Shown piece after piece: positions 10,467-49,754 of a DNA stretch of 64,000 bases. The first letter of the stretch is position 1. The number at the start of each line of letters is the position of its first letter. Both the position numbers and the translations under genes were made by a program. Origin of the DNA: Bacteroidia bacterium (GTDB lineage: Bacteria; Bacteroidota; Bacteroidia; J057); contig JAUIKF010000033.1 in assembly GCA_030430575.1 (NCBI GenBank), positions 1-64,000 on the forward strand. The letters run 5' to 3'. The notes beneath the pieces were generated by a model that saw only the letters and a list, made by a program, of their open reading frames with translations, did not search any database and was not told where the DNA came from.

Positions 10467-10767
10467 AAGAGATCGTTCGCTGGCGCTCACTGCGAGACCG
10501 TTCGTCGCGGAGCTCCTCACTGCGAGATCGTTCGTCGCGGAGCTCCTCACTGCGAGATCGCTCGTCGCGGAGCTCCTCACTGCGAGATCGCTCGCTGACG
10601 CTCGCTGCGAGACTAAAGACAAAGACTTCTCTCTTGTCTCGGAGCGAGGCGAGTCTTCGAGCCGAGCGGTCTCGCAGTGAGTGCCGCAGGCGCGAACGGT
10701 CTCGCAGGGAGCCCAAAGGGCGACCGGTCTCACAGCGAGGGCTGAGTCTGCGAAGCCCGAGCGGTCT
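10467..10767. repeat. Array of GAGAYCGYTCG/CTGCGAG repeats with mini-palindromic spacers
   Basis: The whole 301-bp gap is repeat. On the left, GAGAYCGYTCG starts at 10469, 10494, 10524, 10554 and 10584, with a last partial unit at 10609. Three near-identical 30-bp units share the spacer TCGCGGAGCTCCTCACTGC. After about 10636 the orientation flips and CGAGCGGTCTCGCAGTGAG-type units alternate with spacers such as TGCCGCAGGCG, CCCAAAGGGCG and GGCTGAGTCTGCGAAGCC. Most spacers are small palindromes. The array runs from the stop codon of one minus-strand gene to 3 bp before the ATG of the next. Related copies lie at 36221-36343, 36438 onward and 42081-42352. Confidence 0.85.
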
Positions 10768-12729
10768 CTACTTCCGAGGCACAGTAGCCAGATTGAACAG
10801 CGGAATATCCACTGAAGCGAAAATCCCCCATCGCCAGCCGCTAAGGGCTTCCACACCTAGCGTCGTGCTGGTCACCTTCCGCAGTTCGGGCCCGTGCTGG
10901 ACGCCTGCGCCGATGGCGACAGGTAGGTTGGGCACGCCGTAGACGAGGTAGCCGCCAGGGGCAATAATATTACGCAAACTGATCTGAGGCAAATTTTTGG
11001 TGGAATCATCCTGAAAACGGAAGGCCGTGACGGCACCGATGTCGACGATCGAGCCAAAGAGGCTGATGGACCCTGCTTTCCCCAGCCCCCAACTGACAGA
11101 GATGCCGATCGGGGCGGAGACGGCAAAGATATTGTGGACCGTGTCCCGATGGCTATTGTTTCCGACAGGATAGAAAAGGGTCTCCCGCCCAAAAGTGCCT
11201 CCTAGGTAGGCTTGAAATGCGATGTTGAAGGCGCTGTTTTTCTTCACGGCAGAACTCCCTACGGGCAATGCCGCAGACTGCAAGGCTGCCTTGACTTCTG
11301 AGGCGCTATCGGCGGTGGCGACATTGGCCATGAACGTGCCGTACTTGAGGATTTCTGGACCAAAGGTGAATTTGGGACCCATCAAGGTGTCTAGCAAGGC
11401 GGTAAGGGTGACTACTCCCTGGGCGTATTGCGATTGACGAATGTCCAGGTTGATGCTGTTGAGCATGGAAAGACTGGATAGGAACTTGCTTTCGGAAGAA
11501 AGGGCTTCGCCTCCTGTCAGGGTTTTCAACTCACTGATCATGGAATAACCGCTTCGCATCATATGCAAGAGGTTGTTGGTGACTTGGTAGAACTCATTGG
11601 CGGTGATGGTATCTCCATGTGCATAGCCCTGTAGCAAAAAATCAATCTGATTGGCACGTAAAATCAACCCACGTAGGGTCTTGGAAATCAAAGCGACTTT
11701 TTCCGCATAATTCTCTGCCGTATGTAACATCGTCCCAAAAGTCACCGTGTCGCCTTTGGCACCTACAAAAGGGATATTCTGAGCCTTTTGGTACACCAAC
11801 CCCAAAAAAAGTTTAAATGTCACCGTATCTGCAAAAATGTCTCGTGATTCGAGGGAGGTCACCCAGTAGTTTACCTGGCTGGAATCTGCACGCAGGGCAT
11901 TGGAAATCACATCGGTGACCTGCATGCTAGAAAGGAAATTTTGCAAGACATGATGCTTTTTCAGCAGGCTGTCGGGAAACTGGGCCTTTTGTCCCCAGAA
12001 GTCCAAAATCTGGCCTGGGTGGTCACCGTTCATGGTCATATTCGCTGAAATGAGGAGGTCAGGCAAAAGGACTTTAAGCACATCATTTTTGATCCAGGCA
12101 TTATAGGTAGGGTCTTCCAGTAGATTGGCGAGGTGCATGGGCAGACTCTTGAGGTCTCGCTGGAAACTCCCTTGCAAAGCACTGATAAACTGCTGATAGC
12201 GGTAAATATTGGTGCCGATGGTGGACAGGGTTTGCGCGGTTTGGGGGAACAGTTTCTTGAAAGCGGGGTGTTTATCGAGCTGGTTTTGAAATTTGGAGAA
12301 GAAGGCAATGTTGAGCTCTTGCTCAGCTCGCTCCACCAAAAACTGGGCGGTTCCGTCTACGATATTGGTGACATTGAGGCTCAAGATGCCTGAAGAACTG
12401 GCGATGGCGGGCGCCACACTGAAGGGGACAGATCGTTCATTTTTGGGCGGGAGTTGAATGGCTCCTTGGAGGGAATCTCCCCCCAGGAAAGGGTTTTCGT
12501 CATACCCTTGATGGATTTGATGGTCATCGGTTTGGTTGCCGACCGGGGTATACTTGCCCAGAATTCCATAGACCGAGTTTATGGCGTCGGGGTTGAACTC
12601 GTAGGCCCCAGTGGGTCCCTTGATCATCATGCTTCGGAGGGTCAATGCATCCTGGACAGCCAGCTGGGCATTACTAGCAAGAGGCAAAGTGAATAGCCAT
12701 ATAGTTAGAAAAGCGTAGTGTTTCTTCAT
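10768..12729 (-). CDS. Secreted protein of unknown function with possible C-terminal barrel
   Basis: 653 residues. A Sec signal peptide (MKKHYAFLTIWLFTLPLASN, then AQ) directs export. The long middle part is mainly helical (for example FISALQGSFQRDLKSLPMHL and MLHTAENYAEKVALISKTLR). The last 150 residues alternate hydrophobic and polar residues (GISVSWGLGKAGSISLFGSI, PNLPVAIGAGVQHGPELRK, WRWGIFASVDIPLFN), like outer-membrane strands. No family recognised. The TAG stop overlaps the edge of the repeat array (TAGAGACCGCTCGG on the coding strand). The gene is divergent from the second caspase gene, with about 160 bp between the starts. Confidence 0.75.
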   Translation of the reverse strand: MKKHYAFLTIWLFTLPLASNAQLAVQDALTLRSMMIKGPTGAYEFNPDAINSVYGILGKYTPVGNQTDDHQIHQGYDENPFLGGDSLQGAIQLPPKNERSVPFSVAPAIASSSGILSLNVTNIVDGTAQFLVERAEQELNIAFFSKFQNQLDKHPAFKKLFPQTAQTLSTIGTNIYRYQQFISALQGSFQRDLKSLPMHLANLLEDPTYNAWIKNDVLKVLLPDLLISANMTMNGDHPGQILDFWGQKAQFPDSLLKKHHVLQNFLSSMQVTDVISNALRADSSQVNYWVTSLESRDIFADTVTFKLFLGLVYQKAQNIPFVGAKGDTVTFGTMLHTAENYAEKVALISKTLRGLILRANQIDFLLQGYAHGDTITANEFYQVTNNLLHMMRSGYSMISELKTLTGGEALSSESKFLSSLSMLNSINLDIRQSQYAQGVVTLTALLDTLMGPKFTFGPEILKYGTFMANVATADSASEVKAALQSAALPVGSSAVKKNSAFNIAFQAYLGGTFGRETLFYPVGNNSHRDTVHNIFAVSAPIGISVSWGLGKAGSISLFGSIVDIGAVTAFRFQDDSTKNLPQISLRNIIAPGGYLVYGVPNLPVAIGAGVQHGPELRKVTSTTLGVEALSGWRWGIFASVDIPLFNLATVPRK

Positions 12730-12890: not shown

Positions 12891-14798
12891 ATGGCCCAAG
12901 AATCCAAACGCGGACTCAAAATCCCCCAAAAACCAGCAAAGAAGGCCCCCAAAGGCCGCAATTACCTAATGGTCATTGGCATCAATGCCTATCAGCATTT
13001 CACTCCGCTCAACAATGCCGTAGGTGACGCAAAAGCTATTAAGGAATTGCTGGTAGCGCGATATCAGTTTCAGGAAGAAGATGTCATGGAGCTGTATGAT
13101 CAGCAAGCAACCAGAAAGAATATTCTGCGCGGACTGAGGAGCTTAGAAGATCAGATTACGACAGAAGATAATTTGATCGTCTATTTTGCGGGCCATGGGA
13201 CCATGAATAAACGCAAGACCAAAGGCTTTTGGATACCTGTGGATGCTGAATCGCACCAGGATGAGTATATCGCCAACTCTCGTATCAAAGATCATCTTGA
13301 CGAGGTAGAAGCGCATCATATCTACCTGATCGTAGATTCATGTTTTTCAGGGAGTATCGTTAACAGGTCTTCAGCGTTTTCAGAACGGGTAGAGACGTTG
13401 CCTTCTCGCCGCGTGTTGACCTCTGGTAGAAATGAAGTCGTTTCCGATGGAAAACCAGGAAAGCATAGCCCTTTTGCAAATTGCTTGATTACCTATTTGA
13501 GAACGCACCAAGGCAGTCTTCCTGCTTCTGAACTTGAACTTCACGTAAAAAAGAATACCTCTAGATCTGCCTCCCAGTCACCTGACAGCGCTTATATCTA
13601 TGGTCTAGGCGATCAAGGAGGCGAATTTGTATTTCATCCTAAACAGGATGAAGAAAACGAATGGCAGATGGCCGAAGTGATAGGAACCTTTGATGGCGTA
13701 GAACAATACCCAAAAGCTGATCCTGAAGGAAGAGATGCTGCCTTAGCTGAGGAGAAACTTGCCATTCTAAAAGACGAAACGGCATGGCAACAGGCGCAAA
13801 AAACAAATAACCTCACTGCATATCGGGTTTATCTCCGCGATTTTCCAGAAGGAATCCACCATGAGGAAGCACACCAGCAAATGCTGACGATCGAAGAGAC
13901 CGCTGATTGGTGGAAGGCTAAGCAGAGAGATAATGTGACGACCTATAAGGAGTTTTTAGTAGACTACCCAGAGAGCGGCTATGTTGTGGAGGCTGAGGCT
14001 CGGATAAGGGTATTACTTGCCAGTGAAAAGGCATCTGCTGTCGCAAAGTCTCAAGCAAAAACCCAACAGGCGTCACCTCCCAAGGTAGTTCTTGCAAAAA
14101 AAATCACTGAAGGTCCCATCGAGATGGTATGGATAGAGGGAGGGACATTTATGATGGGAAGCCCAGAGGGAGAAGAGGGGAGATATAATATCGAGATACA
14201 GCATGAAGTGACTGTCAGCTCATTTGCAATAGGAAAATATCCTGTTACGCAAAAAGAGTGGAATGAGGTAATGGGGGAAAACCCTAGTTATTTTAAGGGG
14301 GGAGATGATTGGCCTGTTGAGCAAGTTTCTTGGTATGACGTCCAGGAATTTATCCTAAAATTAAATCAACAAACAGGAAAGGTCTATCGCATGCCCACAG
14401 AGGCAGAATGGGAGTTTGCTGCACGTGGAGGAAATTTGAGCAAAGGATATATTTATGCGGGAAGCAACCTACTGGAGGATGTAGGATGGTTTAAGGGAAA
14501 TGCAGGCAAAAAAACACACCCTGTAGGCCAAAAGGCTGCCAATGAATTAGGCCTGTATGATATGAGTGGGAATGTACGGGAGTGGTGTGAGGATTGGTTC
14601 GCTTTTTATTCTACCGAAAAACTAACTGATCCCAAGGTGTCAAACACAGGCGGTGAAACAGTTATTCGTGGCGGTGGCTGGAACAATCTTCCTCAGGACT
14701 GCCGTTCTTCAAATCGTGATTTTGGACCACCATATGACCCCATTGAAGACCTTGGCTTTCGCCTAGCCTTGTCCCCCAGTCAGGAGGTCGTCCAATAG
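12891..14798 (+). CDS. Caspase-family (C14) peptidase with helical repeats and FGE-sulfatase domain
   Basis: 635 residues. The caspase domain (about 22-250) has His102 (FAGHG) and Cys151 (VDSCFSG), in the same positions as the paralogue at 1589. A middle region absent from that paralogue carries two helical repeats of about 33 residues (starting WQQAQKTNNLTAYRVYLRDF at 299 and WWKAKQRDNVTTYKEFLVDY at 340), each of the W-A-Y-FL-YPEG pattern seen in other bacterial caspase proteins. An Ala/Lys/Gln linker leads to the FGE-sulfatase domain (about 409-628): GGTFMMGS, MPTEAEWEFAARGG, GNVREWCEDW, LGFRLAL. No signal peptide. The tail GGGWNNLPQDCRSSNRDFGP has little in common with the paralogue although the flanks match. 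Likely role: regulated proteolysis or a death/defence effector. The partner or trigger is unknown. Confidence 0.88.
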   Translation: MAQESKRGLKIPQKPAKKAPKGRNYLMVIGINAYQHFTPLNNAVGDAKAIKELLVARYQFQEEDVMELYDQQATRKNILRGLRSLEDQITTEDNLIVYFAGHGTMNKRKTKGFWIPVDAESHQDEYIANSRIKDHLDEVEAHHIYLIVDSCFSGSIVNRSSAFSERVETLPSRRVLTSGRNEVVSDGKPGKHSPFANCLITYLRTHQGSLPASELELHVKKNTSRSASQSPDSAYIYGLGDQGGEFVFHPKQDEENEWQMAEVIGTFDGVEQYPKADPEGRDAALAEEKLAILKDETAWQQAQKTNNLTAYRVYLRDFPEGIHHEEAHQQMLTIEETADWWKAKQRDNVTTYKEFLVDYPESGYVVEAEARIRVLLASEKASAVAKSQAKTQQASPPKVVLAKKITEGPIEMVWIEGGTFMMGSPEGEEGRYNIEIQHEVTVSSFAIGKYPVTQKEWNEVMGENPSYFKGGDDWPVEQVSWYDVQEFILKLNQQTGKVYRMPTEAEWEFAARGGNLSKGYIYAGSNLLEDVGWFKGNAGKKTHPVGQKAANELGLYDMSGNVREWCEDWFAFYSTEKLTDPKVSNTGGETVIRGGGWNNLPQDCRSSNRDFGPPYDPIEDLGFRLALSPSQEVVQ

Positions 14799-28054: not shown

Positions 28055-28370
28055 AATAATAAGCTATCAGGTTTGAATAATCAAAGTGAAAAGGTAGGGT
28101 TTTTATGGAGTTGATTCGATAGACAAATAGGTGAATGCGTTACAAGGGGAAGAAAGGGAAAACTCAAATTCAAGCGCAAATTCAAGTGTCAAGTTCAAGT
28201 TTCCTTCAGACTAAAGGGCATTTTTTGAACCATATAAGGCATTTAAGGGCATATAAGATCAAAAAAAGTGCTCTTGCCATTCTATCATTTTCTCATCCTA
28301 TCATTCTATCATTTCCTAGAGAGATCGGTCTCACATATATTCTTATATTTGGCACAAAATATGGCTCAGC
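28055..28370. repeat. Gap built of several repeat words, with promoter-like box
   Basis: The 316-bp divergent gap holds CAAATTCAAGCGCAAATTCA words (about 28163-28200), a 32-bp segment with AACCATATAAGGCATTTAAG (28226-28257) that recurs at 35724-35755 with one change, and TCATTCTATCATT words (28279-28314). GAGATCGGTCTCACA near 28320-28335 resembles an end of the GAGACCGCTCG repeat. A TAnnTTTG box (TATATTTG, 28344-28351) 20 bp before the next gene may be its promoter. No gene is visible. Confidence 0.6.
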
Positions 28371-36220: not shown

Positions 36221-36343
36221 TAGACCGTTCGTCGCTATCGCTCCTCACTGCGAGACCGCTCGCCCTTCGGGCTCGCTGCGAGATCGTTCGCTGGCGCTCA
36301 CTGTCAGACCGCTCGGCTCGAAGACTCGCCTCGCTGTGAGACA
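36221..36343. repeat. GAGAYCGYTCG/CTGCGAG repeat array, second locus
   Basis: Units GACCGTTCG, GAGACCGCTCG, GAGATCGTTCG and CAGACCGCTCG alternate with spacers TCGCTATCGCTCCTCACTGC, CCCTTCGGGCTCGCTGC, CTGGCGCTCACTGT and GCTCGAAGACTCGCCTCGCT. It begins 3 bp upstream of the ATG of the gene at 35904. CCCTTCGGG is a small palindrome. Spacers of the same type occur in the array at 10467. Confidence 0.8.
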
Positions 36344-36526
36344 AGAGACTTACAAATTATTTTATCATTTACTCATCTAATCATTTACTCATTTTCTCCC
36401 CCCCTTCTCTCCTTCCCTCATTCTATCATTTCTCCGCCAGACCGCTCGGCTCGAAGACTCGCCTCGCTGTGAGACAAGAGACTTACAAATTATTTTATCA
36501 TTTACTCATCTAATCATTTACTCATT
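36305..36526. repeat. 89-bp perfect direct duplication containing repeat end and TCATT words
   Basis: 36305-36393 and 36438-36526 are identical by eye over 89 bp. Each copy holds a CAGACCGCTCG repeat unit, the ACAAGAGACTTACAAATT segment and a run of TTTACTCATCTAATCATT words. The offset is 133 bp. The duplicate shows that the repeat and its flanking words move or copy as one block. No gene is seen in 36219-36542. Confidence 0.85.
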
Positions 36527-36542
36527 CCATTCCCTCATTCCC

Positions 36543-37349
36543 TCATCCTATCATTCTCTCATTCGCCTTTATTACCTCCTCCAAATCCTCCTGTATATGA
36601 CCATTGCTGGCGATGATTTGTTTACCAAATAAATAATCATTTCCTCCTTTGAAATCACTCACTATGCCCCCTGCCTCTTGAACAATAAGCGCGCCTGCGG
36701 CGACATCCCAGGGGTTGAGCCCCCACTCAAAAAAGCCTTCTAGTCGTCCACAGGCTACATATACCAAATCTATGGCGGCACTGCCCATGCGTCTTATGCC
36801 GTGAGAAGCCGCTAACATATAGGCTACTAGCTTGAGGTATTCGTCCAGGGAGCTAAGGCCCTTTTTGGGGAAACCTGTGCCTATCAGGGATTCAGCGAGA
36901 ACCTTGCATTCACTTACCTGAATGGCTTCGCCATTCAAGGTCGCACCGCCTCCTTTATATGCTGCGAACAACTCGTCGCCGATGACTTCATACACAATTC
37001 CTAAAACAACTTCCGTCCCTTGTCGAAGGGCTACACTGATCGCAAACATGGGGATCCCGTGGACAAAATTGGTGGTCCCATCGATGGGATCTACGATCCA
37101 GGTATAGTCATTGATGGCCTGGGCATCTGCCGTCTCTTCCCCAATAAACCCCGCTCCAGGAAGCAGCGTCCCTAATTTCTCTTTCAATAATTGCTCCGTC
37201 TGGACATCTACATAGGAAAATAAATCATTTTTCCCCTTATACTCCACCTGCTGACGCGAAAAATTCTGAAAGGCGTTCCGCGCAAATTCACCCGCTTCCT
37301 TTACAGCTAATTCTGTCTGATTGAGTAATGTGGGGAGAGAAATGGTCAT
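36543..37349 (-). CDS. suhB: Inositol-monophosphatase-family phosphatase
   Basis: 268 residues. The metal-dependent phosphatase motifs are intact: GEETADAQ, WIVDPIDGTTNFVHGIPMF and NPWDVAAGALIVQEAGGI. SuhB-type enzymes hydrolyse myo-inositol 1-phosphate or related sugar phosphates in the cytosol. Some have an added role in rRNA transcription. The C-terminal residues (ANERMIG) and TGA are encoded by a copy of the TCATTCTATCATT word (36543-36563), so the gene end has been taken over by, or evolved into, the repeat. Start ATG at 37349 is the natural family start. Confidence 0.9.
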   Translation of the reverse strand: MTISLPTLLNQTELAVKEAGEFARNAFQNFSRQQVEYKGKNDLFSYVDVQTEQLLKEKLGTLLPGAGFIGEETADAQAINDYTWIVDPIDGTTNFVHGIPMFAISVALRQGTEVVLGIVYEVIGDELFAAYKGGGATLNGEAIQVSECKVLAESLIGTGFPKKGLSSLDEYLKLVAYMLAASHGIRRMGSAAIDLVYVACGRLEGFFEWGLNPWDVAAGALIVQEAGGIVSDFKGGNDYLFGKQIIASNGHIQEDLEEVIKANERMIG

Positions 37350-41447: not shown

Positions 41448-42083
41448 ATGCGATTTGAGCGAAAATACAAAGTCGAAGGCTTCTCGCTGGCAGAAGTAAA
41501 GCAATTGTTGCGGTTCCATCCCGCATCGTTCAGGACGCTGTACCCCGACCGTCAGGTCAACAATATCTACTTCGATACGCCTGCCATGCAGGCCTTTAAT
41601 CAGAATGGCTTCGGTATCAACCAGCGCAAGAAATACCGCGTCCGCTGGTATGGCGACGACGTCAGGAAGGTGCAAGCCCCCCAACTCGAAGTCAAGATCA
41701 AGCACAATGAACTAGGTCGTAAAGAAATCCAAAACCTAACGCCTTTTTCCCTACAAGACCTCGCTCCGCTCACTCAAGCAGTCAATAACCATAATAAGCA
41801 TTACATCGCCCTCAGGCCTGTTTTGCTCAATTCCTATAAGCGCAGCTATTACATCTCCATGGATGGCAACTTTCGCCTGACGATCGACCATCACTTGCGC
41901 TATCATTCCCTTATCATGGGCCCTTCCTTCCGCCAATATATGGTGCAGGACCCCAGTATTATCATTGAGATCAAGTATGAGCAGGACTGGGACGAAGAAG
42001 CCAATCACATCACCCAGCGCCTTCCACTGCGTCAGGTCAAGTACTCCAAGTATGTGACAGGGGTGCAGTTGACGAATAAGTGA
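41448..42083 (+). CDS. VTC-domain protein (polyphosphate-polymerase-like)
   Basis: 211 residues, a complete TTM-fold VTC domain. Strand motifs: MRFERKYKV (ExK), VNNIYFDTPAMQAF, KKYRVRWYG, LEVKIKHN, RPVLLNSYKRSYY, FRLTIDHHLRY, SIIIEIKYEQD and QVKYSKYVTG. Yeast Vtc4 uses this tunnel of basic residues and a metal to polymerise ATP gamma-phosphate into polyphosphate. The bacterial version with DUF4956 and CotH has no proven activity. It is the last gene of the likely operon, 90 bp after CotH. The TGA stop overlaps the start of a GAGACCGCTCG repeat (TGAGACCGCTCGAG). Confidence 0.85.
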   Translation: MRFERKYKVEGFSLAEVKQLLRFHPASFRTLYPDRQVNNIYFDTPAMQAFNQNGFGINQRKKYRVRWYGDDVRKVQAPQLEVKIKHNELGRKEIQNLTPFSLQDLAPLTQAVNNHNKHYIALRPVLLNSYKRSYYISMDGNFRLTIDHHLRYHSLIMGPSFRQYMVQDPSIIIEIKYEQDWDEEANHITQRLPLRQVKYSKYVTGVQLTNK

Positions 42084-42352
42084 GACCGCTCGAGGGCCTG
42101 GAGAAGTAAAAATAACTAACAAGGAACAAGGAAGTAAAAAGGGTTAAAAGTCGAAGATTTCTCTTCCTTTTCACTTTTAAAATTCTTGTTCAATGTTTTT
42201 ACTTTCATTTGCTTTAGTCTCACAGCGAGGGCTGAGTCTTCGAAGCCCGAGCGATCTCACAGTGAGTGTCGAAGACGCGAACGGTCCCAAAAGGAGGAGC
42301 GGAGCGACGACCGATCTCGCAGCGAGGGCCGTCTTCGGCCCGAGCGATCTCA
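42081..42352. repeat. GAGAYCGYTCG repeat locus reaching into the stop codons of both flanking genes
   Basis: TGAGACCGCTCGAG at 42081-42094 contains the VTC-gene stop. A run of inverted units at 42217-42352 (TCTCACAGCGAG, CGAGCGATCTCACAGTGAG, CGAACGGTC, GACCGATCTCGCAGCGAG and CGAGCGATCTCA) contains the TGA of the minus-strand gene at 42350. Spacers are GGCTGAGTCTTCGAAGCC, TGTCGAAGACG, GAGCGGAGCGAC and GGCCGTCTTCGGCC, the last a palindrome. The 120 bp between are AT-rich with AAGTAAAAA words. Confidence 0.8.
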
Positions 42353-44234: not shown

Positions 44235-44614
44235 GGGAAAATGTTGAATGGAGAATGAAAAATTAAGAATGAACTAGAAAAATTTCATTTTATCTTCGAA
44301 AGCGCAAAGATAAGGGGAAATGGAGAATTAAAAATTAAAAATGGGCATCCTTTATGGAATGAATAAAAATTAAAATGAAAGTTAAAATCAAAGTATGAAT
44401 TGATTTTCAGTGAGTTATAAATGAATAACTGAAAAGTTATTTTTTCTTCATTCCTATATGAACTAAAGTTGTTAGCAGCTTTTTTATCGAAAGATGTGTT
44501 TTTACCTATTTTATCATTTATTCATCTACTCCCTTCGATAAACTCAGGACAAGCATTTTCTCATTCCATTCTATCATTCTGTCATTCTATCATCCTATCA
44601 TTCATCCTCTCCCC
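44235..44614. repeat. AT-rich gap with AAAATTAAAAATG and TCATTCTATCATT words
   Basis: The 380-bp divergent gap between purQ and the acetyltransferase contains AATTAAAAATTAAAAATGGG and related A-rich words (about 44255-44400), a CCTTCGATAAACTCAGG element (44532-44548, complement of the CCTGAGCTTGTCGAAGG core) and TTCTATCATTCTGTCATTCT words (about 44570-44600). No gene is visible. Confidence 0.6.
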
Positions 44615-48734: not shown

Positions 48735-49754
48735 TTAGTTATCCTCTTTTTTGTCAATTCCCTTTTTGAGTTCTTCAATCATTTTTTTCATCTCTGATAA
48801 TTCATCTTCCAACTGGTTGTTCTTTTCAGCTAATTGGTCCTTCTCTTGGGTTATCTGATCCTTCTCCTCAGCTAATTGGTCCTTCTCTTGGGTTATCTGA
48901 TCCTTCTCCTCAGCTAATTGGTCCTTCTCTTGGGTTATCTGATCCTTCTCCTCAGCTAATTGGTTTCTTTCTTGTTCCAATTTGTTTTTGGCTTCAACTA
49001 GGATCTGCTTTTCCCTGATATGGGCGTCCAGCATCTGCTCCACTTCCTCTTCTAGCTCCACTTTGGCCAACAGTTCCTCCTCTGTGGCAGCCTTCCGGAG
49101 TCGATTTGCCATTAGCTCCAACAACTCATCTCCAGTCAATTCTGACTCTTTGATCTCCAGTATTTTGGAATCATCCGAAATGTACATTTGGTTAAATACC
49201 TTCAATAACCGCTCTAATTCTGTTCGGTCTTCCTTACCTAAGCGTGATATTTGTATAATAAAGCTATCGTGCGTCAGTTTCTCGACGAATTCCTCCTTTG
49301 ACTCAATGGTCTTTCCCGTGATCAAGTCATGATAAACTCGATTTACCTTCATTACGGTGGTAGGAATATTTATTAACGGAAATCCTAAAAAGTAAATAGT
49401 AGTAATAGGAAGGGAAGATTTGCTCACCTCATTGCCTTGTTGAATGGAATCTTCTTTTCGATAATTATCTCCCAAATACTTTCGGAATCGCAGTATATCA
49501 CCAGGCTGCTTGCCTTTTTGTAATTCAATCAAGATTTTTTTCAGGCTACCATCGGCTGTCTTTATCGTGGCTTTGAAGTCTAGACGGAGGATAATAATTT
49601 CAAACCTGTCTGAACGGGTAATGTTCTCAAGGGGTTGAAAGGTCAATTCGATGATTTCTTCTCCGATGATCTTAGAGAGAAAGCGGCGGGCAATCTCAAT
49701 GTCTTCGAGCAGGTATTTGAAAACTACATCGTAGATAGGGTTAGCTATTCTCAT
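48735..49754 (-). CDS. Rpn/PDDEXK_2-type nuclease-like protein with tandem coiled coil
   Basis: 339 residues. The N-terminal part (about 1-150) is the PDDEXK_2 / Rpn-like nuclease fold: NPIYDVVFKYLLEDIEIARR, ILRLDFKATIKT (Asp) and KKILIELQKGKQ (the E-Q core). A long coiled coil (about 225-335) contains three perfect 14-residue repeats of the QLAEEKDQITQEKD type, encoded by identical 42-bp units at 48828-48953. Such proteins are recombination-promoting or transposase-related nucleases. It interrupts the SusD-to-VCBS neighbourhood and has its own terminator upstream, so it looks like an inserted single gene. Confidence 0.82.
   Translation of the reverse strand: MRIANPIYDVVFKYLLEDIEIARRFLSKIIGEEIIELTFQPLENITRSDRFEIIILRLDFKATIKTADGSLKKILIELQKGKQPGDILRFRKYLGDNYRKEDSIQQGNEVSKSSLPITTIYFLGFPLINIPTTVMKVNRVYHDLITGKTIESKEEFVEKLTHDSFIIQISRLGKEDRTELERLLKVFNQMYISDDSKILEIKESELTGDELLELMANRLRKAATEEELLAKVELEEEVEQMLDAHIREKQILVEAKNKLEQERNQLAEEKDQITQEKDQLAEEKDQITQEKDQLAEEKDQITQEKDQLAEKNNQLEDELSEMKKMIEELKKGIDKKEDN
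48828..48963. repeat. 42-bp tandem repeat within the coiled-coil coding region
   Basis: Three identical 42-bp units begin at 48828, 48870 and 48912 (each starting AGCTAATTGGTCCTTCTCTT) with a partial fourth from 48954. Perfect identity implies recent expansion or slippage. Each unit adds 14 residues, keeping the heptad register. Confidence 0.9.

Follow-up and report, generated by a model that had tools for sequence, protein, structure and literature searches.

Dispersed arrays of hairpin units positioned at gene 3' ends in the genome of a Bacteroidia bacterium

The genome of a Bacteroidia bacterium (GenBank assembly GCA_030430575.1) carries a dispersed family of arrays built from short hairpin units, and the strongest finding of this analysis is the position of these arrays relative to genes. 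Indeed, with genes predicted by an uncurated, hexamer-based caller, in which 3' ends follow the chosen frame and 5' ends are approximate, 100 of the 139 element ends facing a gene 3' end lie within -3 to +5 bp of the stop codon, versus 0/29, 0/28, 0/34, 15/120, 8/56 and 21/71 (0-30%) for six control repeats from this genome. At the commonest joint, T·GAGACC (the dot marks the junction), the GA of the element completes a TGA stop codon; TA·GAGACC, TAG·, TAA·, TAGACC and TAAGACC are also encountered. The stop codons at elements comprise 50 TGA, 32 TAG and 9 TAA, and those elsewhere 434, 320 and 548, respectively. Base counts at the element flanks revealed no target motif beyond the stop codon, and a sequence-specific target TRR is disfavoured by the lack of any motif at the gene-5'-facing ends.

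A preliminary description of this DNA had located the element between cotranscribed genes, which proved too narrow: 67 of the 118 elements sampled are found in tandem gaps, but 31 are in convergent and 14 in divergent gaps (6 undetermined). One element starts 3 bp past a tRNA-Gln gene and one directly follows a terminator-like T-tract, single cases which suggest that the gene end, rather than the stop codon, is what matters. On the opposite side, about 24 of 87 gene-5'-facing ends are at most 20 bp from a start codon, the element described below (2 bp) included; transcription therefore passes through these elements unless a promoter lies inside them, which argues against a plain terminator.

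The window, i.e. the whole stretch of 64,000 nucleotides that was analysed (contig JAUIKF010000033.1, positions 1 to 64,000), includes a complete two-armed element and two further members of the family (Table 1). The array reported in the preliminary description is present and is not a product of chance, the tag pattern with at most one mismatch having 20 matches in the window versus 2.8 +/- 1.8 in shuffled sequences. Its three almost identical 30-bp units were recovered by TRF (10486-10594, 97% match), and its orientation does flip midway, by an inversion around the core. It also fills an intergenic gap, as had been proposed, but this gap has to be read in the minus-strand direction, starting at the stop codon of the 653-aa gene and ending 2 bp before the ATG of the 169-aa gene, so that a promoter of the latter has no room outside the element. 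When both strands were folded, z-scores against shuffles were -7.6 (RNA, minus strand), -8.2 (RNA, plus strand) and -7.4 (DNA, minus strand), and in the predicted fold the arms pair with each other as one long stem, from which some of the spacers branch off as side hairpins. Open reading frames run through the array; a coding function is nevertheless disfavoured, because the units are located between genes and their spacers vary in length. Elsewhere in the window, a 42-bp tandem repeat (48826-48964; 3.3 copies, 100% identical) and a protein appearing by eye to have a caspase-like domain and, after it, a formylglycine-generating-enzyme-like one (12891-14798) were observed.

Table 1. Members of the element family and adjoining genes in the window
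Feature	Coordinates	Strand	Remarks
Complete element with hairpin units in two inverted arms and a short core	10469..10768	.	Fills the gap between two minus-strand genes
Left arm	10469..10608	+	Five units, X-base order B-B-B-A-A (TTC, TTC, TTC, CTC, CTC); tags start at 10469, 10494, 10524, 10554, 10584
Core, GAGAC-TAAAGACAAAGACTTCTCTCTT-GTCTCG	10609..10640	.	Site of the orientation inversion
Right arm, reverse complement	10641..10768	-	Tags start at 10663, 10693, 10721 (one mismatch), 10758
Upstream neighbour gene, 653 aa	10768..12729	-	TAG stop completed by the element's terminal G (TA·GAGACC)
Downstream neighbour gene, 169 aa	9957..10466	-	TM-like N terminus; ATG 2 bp from the element
Second family element, single arm	36221..36448	+	Last unit repeated inside a 133-bp tandem duplication (36305-36563)
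Third family element, between convergent genes	42082..42351	.	Both ends form the TGA stops of the neighbours (T·GAGACC, T·GAGATC)

Each unit is a hairpin of the form GAYCG-X-TC-palindrome-TC-X'-CTG. The tag GAGAYCGYTCG had been presented as constant, which holds for GAYCGYTC; its final G belongs to the spacer and pairs with the last base of the spacer, this next pair inward of X-X' being G-C in 495 units and A-T in 48. Similarly, the spacers are palindromic as described, with the qualification that in some the stem has a TC/TC internal loop within it: 161 of 181 distinct spacers close into a stem whose loop is 7 or less, versus a mean of 26 after shuffling, and the palindromes are hypervariable. 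A symmetric TC/TC loop (GA/GA on the opposite strand) separates X-X' from the palindrome, and the same motif recurs inside many spacers (GGC-TC-GaagaC-TC-GCC, GTC-GCggaGC-TCC). The bases X and X' form Watson-Crick pairs in 556 of 584 units (C-G 312, T-A 224, G-C 20; others 28), with a Fisher p of 4e-129 on C/T versus G/A that is no formal probability, since the copies are related. Units with X=C (A) and X=T (B) alternate in 268 of 322 neighbouring pairs. Full elements of the host genome mostly consist of two inverted arms of such largely alternating units around a core, the commonest order being A-B-A·A-B-A, from which the window element departs. The description of a structured element is thus supported by covariation.

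The family is dispersed, as had also been surmised. In the whole host assembly, an 8.16-Mb draft in 127 contigs, exact GAGAYCGYTCG was found 343 + 364 = 707 times versus 7 + 5 = 12 times for the reversed pattern, and a fuller unit pattern 387 + 411 = 798 times versus 0 + 3 = 3 for its control. A 2-Mb sample, partly picked for elements and so of no use for density, contains 118 elements and 584 units, about five units per element, and this ratio suggests a whole-genome total of roughly 160 elements. The one same-genus genome compared (G001) contains no unit, and the strict unit pattern was absent from all 394 other Bacteroidota sampled; the family is amplified in this species and absent from that relative. 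However diverged in sequence, the design recurs in at least two other Bacteroidota lineages. Among the listed matches of a public-genome scan, a Saprospiraceae MAG (JAHDDD01, MAG-15) has 52 units versus 0 for the control, in arrays that are mostly one-directional and have minimal 2-bp palindromes (e.g. GCGTTGC); X-X' pairs in 48 of its 53 cases. A wider pattern detected a third lineage, represented by two genomes from a different family of the class. For one of these (G499), 294 kb were analysed, partly picked for matches; with a control count of 0, X-X' pairs in 17 of 18 units (G-C 8, C-G 6, T-A 3; one exception). Selection on the hairpin is best supported by this compensation, which runs through three pair types across diverged lineages, although the counts refer to copies rather than independent events. 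The tendency to adjoin stop codons is also found in these lineages: MAG-15 arrays with a clear gene are 1, 1, 3 and 7 bp from the upstream stop and others 20 bp or more, while in G499 all three arrays for which an upstream gene was assigned abut its stop (d = -3, -2, +1), and in both genomes array orientation is mostly fixed relative to the upstream gene.

The family matched none of the described ones with which it was compared, consistent with the preliminary description, which knew of none. A BLAST comparison of the element with phage and plasmid records gave no match, no match in an Rfam 15 scan of the window reached the family gathering score, and a literature search by the tag letters returned no relevant match. 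By the criteria of PMC2817692, PMC3733652 and PMC3116915, REP/BIME are short extragenic palindromes in hundreds of copies, organised in mosaic arrays in which complementary stem changes are kept. The present family shares these features, its palindromic copies between genes exceeding 100 in the genome. It differs in that (i) the constant GAYCGYTC and TCRCTG contain no GTAG/GYAG/GTGG or CGTC head at the hairpin foot, (ii) units are co-oriented within an arm, with a single inversion at the core, whereas BIME units alternate in orientation, (iii) its gene-3'-facing ends mostly lie at stop codons, as reported above, and (iv) no unit adjoins a RAYT (Y1 transposase) in the flanks read. It thus neither is confined to the window nor agrees with REP/BIME in head, flanking RAYT or unit orientation, the two outcomes that had been named as refuting the earlier interpretation. 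As in REPINs, a single long hairpin, or alternatively a cloverleaf-like form, arises from the inverted arms, with compensatory spacer changes (PMC3116915); unlike REPINs, each arm holds about two to five units that have a palindrome each, the ends are not REP sequences and no cognate RAYT was found. Indeed, three Y1_Tnp matches are present in the host draft, where an unassembled locus is possible given its 127 contigs, and neither their flanks nor those of the MAG-15 Y1 transposases, as far as read, contain a unit, so that RAYT was rejected as the mobiliser.

Other repeats were also noted. A Y1-type transposase gene of the host (L032, G000:C77, 1-830) is flanked by different palindromes with ATTGCGACGGGTTTAAACCCGTCGCAAT, apparently a REP-like family of its own. 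REP-like CTTCGACAAGCTCAG palindromes, one of the control families, are found in the host genome (L039 5825-5989, L236 1774, L251 812) and also inside some spacers, with the same TC/TC loop. Further intergenic repeat families of the host (e.g. 28278-28313 and 44567-44603 in the window) include CATTCTATCATT, CATTCAAAATTC, GTTCTAGGTTTTAG, TGTCATTTCGACG and GTTAGATTTCTCC, of which CATTCAAAATTC is also often near stop codons (21/71).

Orthologous gaps in G001, with genes named by sequence resemblance, lack the element and comprise tandem gaps of 18 bp (hydroxyacyl-CoA dehydrogenase-like), 44 bp (SurE-like) and 65 bp (rlmN-adk), and a convergent gap of 5 bp next to a miaA-like gene; the lengths of the tandem gaps speak for read-through. 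The SurE-like and thymidylate synthase-like proteins are among several whose C-termini coincide in the two genomes, and those genes are therefore not truncated. In the rlmN-adk gap of the host, about 68 bp remain past the element and look, by eye, homologous to the 65-bp spacer of G001; the element therefore appears to have been inserted at the stop codon, and pure replacement of the spacer, an idea drawn from the gap lengths, is disfavoured by this gap. The G001 empty sites are too diverged to define exact joints. After two G001 stop codons (L297, L301), low-complexity repeats GAGAAACGAGAAACGAAAAACG and CGGGTTTCGGGTTTTGGG also start near the stop.

The reading to which we lean, as something close to an even call, is that of a REP/BIME-like, non-coding, dispersed hairpin-array family, not itself REP/BIME, that is specialised for gene 3' ends and would combine spread as non-autonomous DNA with a role at mRNA 3' ends. 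The element could have spread as non-autonomous mobile DNA by means of an enzyme recognising the hairpins in trans, and would have been established or kept at gene 3' ends. Read-through by transcription would be frequent, and the structured RNA that follows directly on the stop codon may keep exonucleases away from the upstream message at its 3' end, by analogy with REPs, which protect mRNA 3' ends in enterobacterial operons. Against this reading, no transposition event or cognate transposase was found, the Y1 transposases of the host and MAG-15 having no unit in the flanks read, and the elements between divergent genes (14/118) adjoin no gene 3' end. Furthermore, the sense-strand TC/TC loop is weaker than the GA/GA loop of the opposite strand and, among distinct spacers, many of which share one ancestor, A-C/C-A mismatches on the sense strand outnumber G-T/T-G (24 vs 5), an asymmetry which hints that the folded strand is not that of the mRNA of the upstream gene.

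The elements could alternatively be bidirectional transcription terminators, the paired arms at convergent gene ends stopping transcription from both sides and the family spreading by supplying terminators. This is unlikely in our estimation, although about 26% of the elements are in convergent gaps, a class that makes up 17% of all gaps, convergent gaps with an element contain little else (median 248 bp, vs 101 bp without an element), the predicted folds are very stable and, in the nrdB-nrdA gap, a terminator-like hairpin of G001 was not seen by eye in the host. Indeed, no match to an intrinsic terminator (GC-rich stem-loop and T run) was found within 10469-10768, element ends are GAGACC/GGTCTC with no T run, one element follows an existing terminator-like hairpin, and the gene-5'-facing ends close to start codons imply read-through or an internal promoter.

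A MITE with terminal inverted repeats GAGACCGCTC...GAGCGGTCTC, inserted at gene 3' ends by a cut-and-paste transposase, seems rather improbable. Inverted ends are present in most elements, and the surviving far-side spacer of the rlmN-adk gap would agree with insertion at the stop codon. Similarly, the Porphyromonas gingivalis MITE (PMC4596501) combines terminal inverted repeats with internal repeat units in a member of the Bacteroidota; in the present family, by contrast, no target motif was seen and single-arm forms are common. Terminal inverted repeats are a feature of most two-arm elements, the many one-arm elements having no second end; moreover, arm length and unit content vary freely, and the MAG-15 arrays are directional and not inverted. 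In the roughly 2 Mb read of the 8.2 Mb, no autonomous transposon with the ends of the element was noticed.

Single-strand DNA recombination or transposition sites, in which the GA/GA strand would fold and become the substrate of an HUH or tyrosine enzyme in a manner analogous to REP or attC, are a similarly doubtful candidate. Integron attC sites follow stop codons and have conserved flanks, a hypervariable palindromic tip and one strand that folds better. The elements resemble them in each of these respects, the better-folding strand being suggested by the asymmetry of loop and mismatches, and the largely fixed orientation in MAG-15 and G499 would also be consistent with such sites. Unlike attC, however, they follow ordinary chromosomal genes (thymidylate synthase-like, SurE-like) and not cassettes, and are arrays of several units; attC core motifs, RYYYAAC and GTTRRRY, were not seen by eye, and no enzyme was identified. 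Selfish spacer DNA, flush merely through neutral loss of the sequence between stop codon and element, is very improbable: although convergent element gaps contain almost nothing else and most 5' sides retain 13-130 bp, the room that promoters and ribosome sites would need, other host repeats are much less flush, element ends are intact, the spacer of the relative seems fully kept in the rlmN-adk gap, and flushness recurs in other lineages.

In summary, beyond the preferred REP/BIME-like reading, these arrays may represent, as a tentative and somewhat doubtful proposal, an undescribed family of stop-codon-flush 3'-end hairpin arrays of several Bacteroidota lineages, whose design of X-X' pair, TC/TC loop and hypervariable palindrome is kept more than the sequence, and which would act in mRNA 3'-end processing or stability and have a mode of dispersal that recognises gene 3' ends. 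To our knowledge, the position of intergenic repeats in bacteria is only loosely tied to genes. Ends that fall within a few bases of the stop codon, as they also tend to do in two other lineages, call for either strong selection on the structure directly downstream of the stop or an insertion machinery able to locate gene 3' ends. Either cause, if true, would connect mobile DNA with the biology of mRNA 3' ends in Bacteroidota in a testable way, and the X-X' covariation offers ready point-mutation tests.
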